This document shows positions 37,502-47,100 of a DNA stretch of 64,000 nt, in pieces. The translations under genes and the position numbers were made by a program. Position 1 is the first letter of the stretch, and the number at the start of each line of letters is the position of its first letter. The DNA is from Candidatus Methanomethylophilus sp. 1R26. Lineage in GTDB: Archaea; Thermoplasmatota; Thermoplasmata; Methanomassiliicoccales; Methanomethylophilaceae. Location of the stretch: contig NZ_LOPS01000048.1 of assembly GCF_001481295.1 (NCBI RefSeq), positions 1-64,000 of the forward strand, written 5' to 3'. The notes beneath the pieces were generated by a model. The model saw only the letters and a program-made list of their open reading frames with translations. It was not told where the DNA came from and made no database searches.

Positions 37502-37701
37502 GCCCCCTGCCTGCTCGGAATTCTCCGTACCATCCGGGCCTGCCGCGCATAGGCCGCGTCAGGTCTGTTTTTAAGATACGGGTATGAAACTGCGGTTCTG
37601 AATTTAAGATACAAGTAAGAAACCGCGGCCTTCCCCCTGCTTCCCTTTAAGAAATATTTATAATCCAAGCACCGATGGGTCGTTCACACAAAGGTGTTCA
37701 A
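37502..37701 (+). promoter_or_regulatory. rps6e promoter with an imperfect 26-bp direct repeat
   Basis: Two 26-bp units, 37570-37595 and 37603-37628 (33-bp period), match at about 22 of 26 positions. Both begin TTTAAGATAC and end in GCGG. They lie just upstream of a TATA box (AAATATTTATAA, 37651-37662). The start codon of S6e is at 37702, with an AGGTG ribosome binding site at 37691-37695. The repeats could bind a regulator of the S6e-aIF2gamma-PIN operon. Confidence 0.5.
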
Positions 37702-39805: not shown

Positions 39806-39915
39806 CCACCGCAACGTTACCGCAGAATTTACCGCAAATTACCGTACTGAAACAGCGCAAATCTCCGTACTGAGATACCGCAAAGTTACCGCAGAAATTG
39901 CCACAAATTACCGTA
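39806..39915 (+). repeat. Array of ten TTACCGYA-like octamers, helically phased
   Basis: Ten copies of an octamer near TTACCGCA/TTACCGTA start at 39806, 39817, 39829, 39839, 39852, 39862, 39875, 39886, 39898 and 39908, with spacings of 10-13 bp (mean about 11). Six copies match TACCG(C/T)A exactly; the others differ by one or two bases. The array also reads as two larger units, 39808-39849 and 39877-39918, 69 bp apart. It ends directly at the TATA element (TTAATATACT, 39915-39924) of the DUF4143 gene, so it is probably an operator or iteron-like array. Confidence 0.7.
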
Positions 39916-39946
39916 ATTAATATACTGGCAATGCGTTGAATCATCC

Positions 39947-41212
39947 ATGTCCGAAAAGTATCTCCGCAGGGCCATCGATGAACGTTTCGAAAGCCAGCTG
40001 AATGCTTTCGGAGCCGTCTGCCTCAGAGGGCCGAAATGGTGCGGCAAAACCACCACCGCATCCAGGTATGCGAAGAGCAGGATCATGATGCAGGGCAAGG
40101 ATGCCAAGGCCTATCTGAGGGCAGCAGATACCGATCTCTCCCTGATTCTCGATGGACCGACCCCCCGGCTGATCGATGAATGGCAAGAGTATCCGCAGAT
40201 ATGGGATTCAGTGCGTTACGAAGTGGACGAACGGAATGGCGCAGGCCAGTTCATACTCACCGGATCGAGCGTCCCCAAGGAGGGATCCACGAAGCACAGC
40301 GGAGCCGGCAGGATCGGGTTCCTGGACATGTACCCGATGAGCCTCTTCGAATCGGGGGAATCCAACGGGACGGTCTCCCTCAGGGACCTGTTCTCAGGGA
40401 CGGCCGATCTCAGAGGAGCGACCGCCGATCTCACGGTCAGGAAACTGGCGGAATGCATCTGCCGCGGAGGATGGCCTGCCAATCTCGGCCTCGGTCAGGA
40501 GATATGCAGAGACAGGATGGCAGGCTACCTGGAAGCGATCTTCGAAGGGGAGGATTTCAGTATCGAGAGGTACGGCAAGGACGTGCAGTTGGCCAAGAGC
40601 ATCGTCAGGTCGTATTCCAGGAACATCTGCACCATGGCCTCTCTTCAGACTATATACAAAGACGTTCAGAATGTCGATATCTCCCTGTCTGAGGACAAGT
40701 TCTATGCGTACATCACGGCCCTGAGGAACACTTACCTGATATCCGACGTTCCTGCCTGGAATCCGGCGATCAGATCGAAATCGGCCATCAGGACATCGGA
40801 AAAGAGGAACCTGGTGGACCCGTCGATCGCAGCATATTATCTAGGCATAACGTCGGACAACTTCGTCGAGGATTTCAACACGTTCGGGTTCCTCTTCGAG
40901 AGCATGTGCATACGCGACCTCAGGGTATATTCGTCCGCTCTCAGGGGGGACATCGATTATTATCATGACCGGTACGGTCTCGAAGCAGATGCCGTGATAC
41001 ATCTGGACGACGGGCGCTACGCTCTCGCAGAGGTGAAGCTCGGCAGCAGGGAGATCGACGAGGGTGCCATGCACCTGTGCAGGATTGAGAGCCTTGTCAA
41101 AGAGAAAGGTCTGAAGCTTCCGAGCTTCAAGATGGTGCTGACCGGCGGCAATCAGGCGTACATGCGCTCGGACGGCGTCGCGGTGGTCCCCATAGGCTGC
41201 CTCCGCGACTGA
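39947..41212 (+). CDS. AAA_14/DUF4143 ATPase
   Basis: This 421-residue protein has an N-terminal AAA_14 ATPase domain with Walker A GPKWCGKTT (residues 29-37), a Walker B-like RLIDEWQ, and ILTGSSVPK as sensor 1. The C-terminal DUF4143 region contains a nuclease-like strand pair, ADAVIHL and ALAEVKLG (E-x-K), as in PD-(D/E)xK folds. Such proteins are common in archaea and gut bacteria, but their cellular role is not established. The ATG lies about 27 nt after the TATA box, consistent with a leaderless transcript. It is a single gene placed after the aIF2gamma-PIN genes, and probably accessory. Confidence 0.82.
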   Translation: MSEKYLRRAIDERFESQLNAFGAVCLRGPKWCGKTTTASRYAKSRIMMQGKDAKAYLRAADTDLSLILDGPTPRLIDEWQEYPQIWDSVRYEVDERNGAGQFILTGSSVPKEGSTKHSGAGRIGFLDMYPMSLFESGESNGTVSLRDLFSGTADLRGATADLTVRKLAECICRGGWPANLGLGQEICRDRMAGYLEAIFEGEDFSIERYGKDVQLAKSIVRSYSRNICTMASLQTIYKDVQNVDISLSEDKFYAYITALRNTYLISDVPAWNPAIRSKSAIRTSEKRNLVDPSIAAYYLGITSDNFVEDFNTFGFLFESMCIRDLRVYSSALRGDIDYYHDRYGLEADAVIHLDDGRYALAEVKLGSREIDEGAMHLCRIESLVKEKGLKLPSFKMVLTGGNQAYMRSDGVAVVPIGCLRD

Positions 41213-44115: not shown

Positions 44116-47100
44116 GTGAGAGTTGTGAATATTGATGTTAAACTTGTGATTGTGGGTTTATTTATAACTGCTATCGTGGCCGCGGGATCTTTGATTTCTC
44201 CGGATTCTTCGGGGGACGTGTATGATGGAACTTATGAAACAGGGGGGTGAAATATGGGCTTCTGACCGGCGATACAAATGAGGCCATCGTTACCGGAGGA
44301 GACAAGTCGGTTGCAGACATCACCATCCCGGCGACAATAACTACTGATGATGGGAAAACATATTATGTGACTCATATCGAGGCTAAAGCTTTCAGAAATT
44401 ATTCCTCCCTGAAATCTGTAGTCATCGAAAAGAACGATAAACTCACTATCGGTGCCAGCGCATTTGAAATATGCCGCAGTCTCACTTCTGCTGTTATTGG
44501 AGAGGGAATTCAGTCGACGGGAAACAACCTCTTCAGCAATTGCACCTCTCTCCAGCAGATTACCCTTCCATCTTCATTGACAACAATAGATGACAATGCA
44601 TTTGCCTCCTGCACCTCTCTCCAGCAGATTACCCTCCCATCTTCATTGACAACAATCGGGAAGAACGCATTTTCGTCCAGTTCCCTGAAGGATGTCAATT
44701 TTGAGGATTGTACCGCTTTGAAAGGAATCGGTGCCTCCGGGTTCGCTGGTACGAAAATCATATCGTTAGTGCTCCCGGACAGCGTCGAAGCCGTTTATGA
44801 TTGTGCATTTATGAATTGCAGCAGTCTGGCAAGCGTGGTTCTGGATGAAAATCTGAAAAGCATCGGAATCAGGGTCTTCGAAGGATGCAGTTTCACATCG
44901 ATATGCGTCCCATCTAAAATCTCAGATCTTCACGACGGCGATGGGAAATCTACCTTTATCGGAATATGGCCGGCAGACATCAAAGTGATCACCGTTTCAG
45001 ACAGCAATCCCAATTATCGCTCCGAAAACGGGGCCGTTTACAATTCTGCAGGTAACGTCATATTCTTCGACCGTTCGAAAACCGGAAGTTTCTCTGTTTC
45101 GGTCAACATCGAAGCATATGCATTCTCTTATACTTCGCTCGACAGCATCGAGGTTCTTGACGGTGCGCAGTATATCGGAAATTACGCGCTCAAATATTCA
45201 GGAATTAAAACTGTCAAAATAGCAGACTCCGTCACATCACTGGGCGAGGGCGTATTTGCATTTTGCAAAAATCTTGAAAAAGCCGTACTTCCGGCCAACA
45301 TCACTGAATTGCCCAAATCATCATTCAATACTTGCAGCGCTATCTCAGATGTAACGCTCCCAGCAGGTATAGTTGCTATGGGTGATAATGCGTTTAGTTC
45401 CTGTATATCCCTCACCGCTCTGACTCTTCCGGAGAACCTTCAAACAATCGGTGACGCTTGCTTTAATAATACGGGCCTTACATCAATCAGTCTTCCCCCC
45501 CTTGTTGCCGACATCGGCAAGGGCGCATTCTCAAACACATCGATAAGGGAAATTTCTGTAGGGGATTATTCGACAGTTGTAAAACTGAACGTAGGGGTTT
45601 TCAAAGGCGAAAGTTTTGAATCGATAACCCTGAACAATGTCTCTGCAGACGAATCTGCTTTCGGAATGATTTCAACCGACTGCCCTAATGCAATCGTCTA
45701 CACCGGCCCTGATTTCACGCTCTGGAACCAGTGCGGGCCTTTGGCAATAAGCAATGACGGAACGATCCTCTATTCATGTCTTCAGAGCGCGGTCGGCAAA
45801 ATAGTGATCCCCTCATCGGTCACTCAGATCGGTTACAGCAAAAGTTCGATACCGTTCGATCGCTGCAGAAGCATCACTGACATCGCATTCGAGGACGCAG
45901 ATGCGACCGTCACCATGGTCTCGAACAGTTTCTTCAATACTTATGCACATGCATCGCTGGTATCGGTCGAACTGCCCAATATTATCAACAAAGGCTCAGG
46001 GAACCTGTTCACCAACTGCGACATGCTAAAGTCGGTTACCTGGACGAGCATAGATGTACTGAAAGGTAAACCGTTCCTCAATTGCCCTGCTCTCGAGTAT
46101 CTGGATCTCTCCGACACAAAAGTCACTGGCGCCTTGTTCGGTCACGCGGCCCTGCAGACTGTCATCACCAACGAGAATACGACGATAACGTCTGATTTTT
46201 CTGAATGCAGCAGTCTGAAGGAGATATCGATTTACGGAAACGTTACAAAGAACATGTTTAAAAATTGCATGTCCCTGGAAAAGGTATACCTCTACAATAC
46301 CGAATCCATCGGCGATTATGCATTCCAAAACTGTGCATCTCTATCGTATATCGTCATGCCGGAAACCGTCAGTTCCATCGGGAAGAGCTCTTTCGACGGC
46401 TGCACTTCACTCAACATTGCGTTCCCGGCATCATTGGCAAAAGTTGGCAGTTCTGCCTTCGGCACGATATCTCTCCTCGATTCTGACGGAACCACTGCTA
46501 TATCTGCGTCAGCCGATAACATCAAGGGCTGCGCGTTCGCGTCCGACGGGGAGAAGCTGATCAAAACCCATACCGTCAGATGCATTGCGGGAGGCAAAGC
46601 CTATCTGTGCGCATCGCCCCTCTCTGGCAATTTCTCTGTCCCGGCGATCTCGGTAACGGGAAACAGCATTGAATGCTGGTATACGGATGCAGAGTTATCG
46701 ACAGCCTATGCTGCGGGGCCTGTCAGTTCCGATCTCACTATTTACGCCAAGACCTCAGCAGTGATGTACACCATCGATTTCGATTCGAATGCGGATCCGC
46801 GATAGAAAGCAAGACTGCGGCATATGGTTCGGAGATGCTGCTCCCGGACGCCCCTGTGCGCGAAGGCTACATATTCGCAGGGTGGTGCAGTGACAGCGCC
46901 CTGCTCAGCATACTTTCGTCGCCGATAACTGTGCCAGCGGGAGATATGACGCTGTACGCGAAATGGACGCCAGTTTCCTATACGGTGGCCTTCAACCCCA
47001 ACGGAGGCGAAGGCACTATGGAGAGCCAGACCATGGCCTACGGGACGGCATCCGCCTGAATCCGAACGTTTTCACGAAAGACAGCAGTGTGTTCAGCGGC

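Follow-up and report, generated by a model that had tools for sequence, protein, structure and literature searches.

The window (the whole 64,000-nucleotide stretch analysed here) belongs to contig C48 of a 1.72-Mb archaeal genome, the relatives of which include Methanomethylophilaceae. At 39947-41212 (+) it carries a gene for a 421-aa AAA_14-DUF4143 protein, in which an AAA+ ATPase, a winged helix-turn-helix and a PD-(D/E)XK nuclease-fold domain are combined, and upstream of this gene lies a repeat array. The initial annotation had described TTACCGYA octamers at 39806-39924, and these are indeed present: there are five exact copies (at 39817, 39829, 39839, 39886 and 39908) and five more with 1-3 mismatches, spaced 10-13 bp apart and leading into TTAATATA at 39917, and the window holds 7 exact octamers against 1.3 expected. 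The octamer is, however, not the repeating unit. The array, at 39807-39921, consists of five contiguous 23-bp units, each with two similar half-sites about 10 bp apart; its self-match is 0.55 at lag 23 compared to 0.21-0.38 at lags 10-13, 21, 22 and 24, and its five units are on average 0.587 identical, above every one of 5000 shuffles (maximum 0.391). All units lie on the forward strand: unit 1 at 39807-39829 (CACCGCAACGTTACCGCAGAATT), unit 2 at 39830-39852 (TACCGCAAATTACCGTACTGAAA), unit 3 at 39853-39875 (CAGCGCAAATCTCCGTACTGAGA), unit 4 at 39876-39898 (TACCGCAAAGTTACCGCAGAAAT) and unit 5 at 39899-39921 (TGCCACAAATTACCGTAATTAAT), the last of which overlaps the predicted TATA box (TTAATATA, 39917-39924, +). 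The 69-bp spacing previously taken for a higher-order duplication is real, but it equals three times 23 bp and is not a separate level of organisation. A CRISPR-like repeat array was ruled out, as the units are contiguous and without spacers. A 69-bp tandem repeat elsewhere in the window (44541-44672, 1.9 copies, within a large leucine-rich-repeat-like ORF) is unrelated to the spacing of the array.

The protein scored 53.0 bits for Pfam AAA_14 and 87.9 bits for DUF4143, above the curated cut-offs of 27 and 28.1, and matched the PADLOC PDC-S01 model PDLC04790 over its full length (residues 1-419, E 4.2e-56). Across 219 family proteins the Walker A region (residues 28-35; 40028-40051, +) keeps K34 in 219/219, with T or S at T35, and Walker B keeps D77 in 218/219 and E78 in 219/219. 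Likewise, D348, E362 and K364 of the PD-(D/E)XK signature region (40985-41038, +) are kept in 214-218 of the 219. The AlphaFold2 model (pLDDT 92) places the helix-turn-helix at 213-225, 233-241 and 249-261, followed by the PD-(D/E)XK core, a predicted alpha-beta-beta-beta-alpha-beta fold at 310-399 with D...ExK. Its fold neighbours, all of weak TM-score, are the archaeal ATPase 2qen, Orc1/Cdc6 on origin DNA, RuvB, DnaA and STAND/NLR proteins; no solved structure was related to the protein in sequence, and PHROGs gave no match to it. The gene encodes a putative antiviral ATPase-nuclease of the candidate family PDC-S01. In the excerpts available of the published account, PDC-S01 (an AAA ATPase fused to PD-(D/E)XK, candidate antiviral) has 9,986 archaeal and 29,494 bacterial occurrences, and experimental validation is still pending for most PDCs; these excerpts make no mention of a repeat array, a DNA address or regulation. 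The family is reportedly among the commonest putative antiviral genes of prokaryotes, and we found no mechanism for it in the literature searched; nor did the open PMC literature, where DUF4143 is named in one paper, yield a published description of the array.

Private arrays of a fixed period beside one gene family

To see which genes follow such arrays in relatives, a search that the initial annotation had proposed, we drew homologues from 61 relatives and from the GTDB genome collection. The latter set is mostly bacterial (Lachnospiraceae, Bacteroidales, Spirochaetes, Erysipelotrichia, a Verrucomicrobium and a Deltaproteobacterium) and includes archaea such as Methanobacteriaceae. The outcome was strongly positive. 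Upstream periodicity exceeded all 60 shuffles for 81 of 87 archaeal genes, with a period of 23 in 74 and of 24 in 6, and exceeded the shuffles for 72 of 77 GTDB-collection genes, with a period of 23 in 60 and of 46 in 9. A score of at least 16 at period 23, 24 or 46 was reached by 127/163 regions upstream of AAA_14-DUF4143 genes and by 0/2303 control windows from the same loci, and in a held-out set of 91 further family genes 81/88 scored at least 12, all at 23, 24 or 46. Nearly all close homologues, whether from Archaea, Bacillota, Bacteroidota, Spirochaetota or other groups, thus have a strict 23-bp array immediately upstream, as do copies on plasmids and phage records, and a Rhizobium plasmid gene that is 27% identical has a 22-bp array. 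Within 1.2 Mb of a complete archaeal genome (G016), both strong 23-bp arrays precede genes of the 23-bp clade and none lies elsewhere. Approximately 8-20% of homologues have no detectable array, and none was seen at the copy checked of a divergent Thermus DUF4143 gene. The same association recurs across Archaea and many bacterial phyla, whose host promoters are unrelated, which leaves the gene itself as the common factor.

The sequence of the unit, by contrast with its period, is largely private. The units of 153 loci share a sparse scaffold, TNCCRCAAA-nnnnnn-AAAYRAAA (information 8.6 bits, null maximum 3.9), in a mostly constant orientation (137/148 loci; held-out 62/74), and otherwise differ from locus to locus. 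A single genome can hold up to 17-20 such loci, no two of which have the same unit; of 259 within-genome pairs none exceeds 85% identity over the specificity positions. When one unit was searched with up to 3 mismatches in each of three complete genomes (G016, G027 and G012), it was confined to its own array. An octamer search of the genome of the window likewise returned nothing outside the locus, the single weak match at C13:5711 not being an array. TTACCGYA is private to this locus, and it is not arrays of this octamer that recur; conserved instead are the 23-bp period, the scaffold, the way the array is placed and oriented with respect to the promoter, and its association with AAA_14-DUF4143 genes.

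Covariation between protein residues and array bases

We then related the columns of the protein alignment to the positions of the unit. By uncorrected mutual information, residue 250 with positions 15 and 16 came out on top. When units were shuffled inside protein clades only, the top pairs were 250 with 16/15, 342 with 6/5, 249 with 13, 232 with 10 and 343 with 4/3, their covariation reaching 0.28 where the null maximum was 0.10. Several other pairs of high uncorrected mutual information, such as residue 280 with position 6 and 283 with position 7, were absent from the top pairs after this control for clade and are regarded as phylogenetic. In the window protein the retained residues fall into three places: residue 232 (40640-40642, +), which covaries with positions 10-11; residues 248-250 (40688-40696, +) at the N-terminus of the predicted recognition helix 249-261, of which 249/250 covary with positions 13-16; and residues 342-343 (40970-40975, +), a loop beside the nuclease active site, which covary with positions 3-6.

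Phylogenetically independent contrasts gave a consistent direction for these pairs: K/R250 goes with G15 (13 contrasts up and 0 down, p = 1e-4), P250 with A16 (13/0), K/R249 with G13 (7/0) and K342 with G5 (11/1, p = 0.003). The control positions 3, 5 and 12 were not significant against K/R250 in these contrasts. Lysine or arginine facing guanine is a classical major-groove contact. A residue-250 code taken from the first set called base 15 correctly in 46/71 held-out loci, compared to 21/71 by the majority base. In a stricter change/no-change contrast over 106 independent pairs, 250 with 16 ranked fourth and 250 with 15 sixteenth of 7475, both below the 95% permutation maximum, a weaker outcome than that of the tests resolved by base. 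Pairs of loci that share residues 249/250 but not 342/343 agree at 0.55 over positions 13-16 and at 0.35 over positions 3-6; those sharing 342/343 but not 249/250 agree at 0.41 and 0.60, respectively, the pairs in both comparisons being non-independent. Recognition helix and loop thus each mainly predict their own half-site.

The simplest reading of this pattern is that two reading heads, the winged helix and the loop beside the nuclease active site, would contact the DNA one turn apart. It would be unusual for a nuclease-domain loop to take the part of a second reading head. Each protein appears to recognise its own array, a view for which sequence covariation gives strong support and which is in line with the earlier idea that the DUF4143 protein may bind upstream of its own gene. 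The residue-to-base covariation could also serve as a natural, large and testable DNA-recognition code.

Promoter geometry and the probable role of the array

At the window gene, as in the family, an operator-like array is present at the gene's own promoter. Here TTAATATA stands 30 bp before the ATG, and in archaeal homologues the commonest TATA-to-ATG distance is 29-30 bp, so that a leaderless transcript is likely. The archaeal TATA box often starts at positions 16-22 of the last unit. At bacterial sigma-70-like promoters, the -35 box falls in 4 of the 23 array registers at 27/42 loci (p = 2e-11, the register having been picked post hoc); it follows the last unit directly or lies inside it, in which case the last unit forms the -35/-10 spacer. 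Binding at the last unit would exclude TBP/TFB or RNA polymerase, and autorepression is therefore preferred. An array that abuts the -35 box leaves room for activation.

Our data argue that the array is probably the private operator of its own gene, the product of which would bind cooperatively and repress its own transcription, with an address specific to the locus. Each 23-bp unit would take up one protomer of the AAA+/winged-helix/PD-(D/E)XK protein, or one fixed assembly of it, head to tail, with the recognition helix (residues 232 and 249-250) reading positions 10-16, the nuclease-fold loop (342-343) reading positions 3-6 one helical turn away, and the A-tracts between the two read segments serving as a shared scaffold. 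Neighbouring protomers would be in direct contact, probably via AAA+ oligomerisation, as the invariant pitch of 23 bp (33 bp in the sister clade) suggests. This agrees with the earlier proposal that the sites lie on one face of the DNA for cooperative binding of a regulator. Since the last unit overlaps or abuts the TATA or -35 box, the bound protein would most likely shut its own promoter and so hold a potentially harmful nuclease at a low level, with release through loss of binding (ATP state, invader). Divergence of each paralogue to its own address would allow many copies per genome without cross-regulation. The array, its association with the family, its fixed pitch and private sequence, its phasing to the promoter and the residue-base covariation are observed; from them we infer binding, head-to-tail assembly, the sign of regulation, the stoichiometry of protomers, a role in defence and release on invasion. 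Several observations count against an autorepressor: the conserved nuclease residues would be superfluous for a plain repressor, many bacterial arrays end right before the -35 box, a position also used by activators, approximately 8-20% of homologues have no detectable array, and the stricter contrast stayed below its permutation maximum. A more tentative generalisation, which we consider possible though not probable, is that PDC-S01 comprises one-gene systems in which an AAA+ nuclease adjoins an evolvable address of its own. This address would be an array of fixed pitch (23 or 33 bp, depending on the clade) that the winged helix and the nuclease domain itself read together through a decipherable residue-to-base code, and it would be used as a switch, or as a built-in target of the nuclease, during invasion.

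MalT and other STAND ATPase regulators oligomerise on direct repeats that lie ahead of a promoter. The window system would resemble them in this respect, but it consists of one gene with one private array, and MalT lacks a nuclease domain and acts as an activator of other genes. By analogy, the protein may oligomerise on its array on sensing an invader, recruit RNA polymerase and raise its own expression. Such an autoactivation switch would account for the approximately 17 bacterial loci at which the array ends directly before the -35 box, the class-II activator position, and would suit a protein that has STAND/NLR proteins among its nearest folds. For a divergent Thermus DUF4143 gene, the one whose checked copy shows no array, a 6.6-fold change in the presence of plasmid DNA is listed (PMC4406477). 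However, at other bacterial loci the -35 box and the spacer lie within the last unit, and at many archaeal ones this unit overlaps the TATA box, where binding should block the general factors, and we regard autoactivation as rather unlikely.

Less probable still is that the array parks the nuclease, or is a genomic cut site whose cleavage during infection would kill the cell. The nuclease active site is adjoined by the loop covarying with positions 3-6, so that bound DNA would lie nearby, and the catalytic residues are almost invariant; yet the phasing with the promoter points to transcription, and a nuclease resting on its own target would be dangerous.

Centromeres of the ParR/parC type and plasmid iterons consist of short direct repeats at an autoregulated promoter. 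Our arrays share the short direct repeats at a promoter, of about two helical turns and beside an AAA+ winged-helix gene, and some copies are plasmid-borne; Orc1/Cdc6 and DnaA, the weak fold neighbours, similarly combine AAA+ with a DNA-binding domain on repeats. Nevertheless, the ParR/parC and iteron proteins are of different families, and here we find a private site at the gene's own promoter, phase-locked to the core elements, at up to 17-20 loci per genome with a different unit each rather than one origin array per replicon, together with a conserved nuclease motif that an initiator would lack. It is therefore very unlikely that the arrays are iterons of a replication initiator or a partition site. 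Just as little probability attaches to an operator for a host regulator, be it a global repressor or a chromatin protein: the A-tract scaffold is shared, as this would predict, but the same architecture occurs in hosts with unrelated regulators, the units are locus-private, and base identity tracks residues of the adjoining gene's own protein. The iteron-like and chromatin-nucleation readings of the initial annotation are accordingly disfavoured. Functionless chance expansion of low-complexity sequence has next to nothing left in its favour and was refuted by recurrence at a fixed period beside one gene family and covariation with its protein, even though the unit multiplies by tandem duplication and near-identical copies are found at many loci.

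Returning to the autorepressor, a published point of comparison is RptR (PMC12255303), the repressor of a defence island and a small dimer on a 6-bp palindrome conserved among bacteria. In the present case, binding would seem to be done by the effector-like ATPase-nuclease itself, and the site differs from locus to locus. A private DNA site throughout the family also provides an experimental handle, with the predicted ligand of tens of thousands of proteins readable from the genome.

A second clade and the gain and loss of arrays

Other DUF4143 genes of the same genome (L007-L009) are accompanied by 33-34-bp repeats. Among 36 relatives of L009, 24 score at least 13 at 32-34 bp and 2 more do so at 66. 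Each clade thus keeps a fixed pitch, of about two helical turns for the first and about three for the second. The earlier statement that nothing similar occurs elsewhere in the window was not quite correct, as a weak, orphan two-unit 33-bp array lies at 37564-37628 (+) between the IF5B and S6e genes, without a DUF4143 gene. At the equivalent place, a genome of the same species (G063) has a DUF4143 gene of the 33-bp clade with a different array, and the orphan looks like the scar of a gene loss. Arrays can also serve as a marker to locate and classify these genes, even after gene loss.

The window gene itself is present in G063 at 90% identity with a diverged array, while most other relatives checked have no match to it beside the eIF2-gamma and PIN genes. 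In another relative (G002), a DUF4143 gene remnant (L351; 37% over 57 aa) follows these two genes, at the locus of the window gene. The eIF2-gamma/PIN locus is a reused insertion site, and gene and array appear to come and go together.

Further arrangements were seen in G016. At L388-L389 (G016:C1:977403-981119), a gene of the 23-bp clade, on the opposite strand, is bracketed by two 33-bp arrays that differ from each other; one of the two has no adjoining DUF4143 gene, suggesting a nested insertion or gene replacement. At L402 (G016:C1:474574-477130), a 33-bp array precedes a three-gene operon in which the DUF4143 gene is last; an array can therefore serve an operon. Finally, a short 33-bp repeat at L379 (G016:C1:781495-781547) precedes a different ATPase-like gene (MLRKDNPYSPGAGRKPVALVGRD...) by approximately 250 bp, and such arrays may thus extend to further ATPase families.
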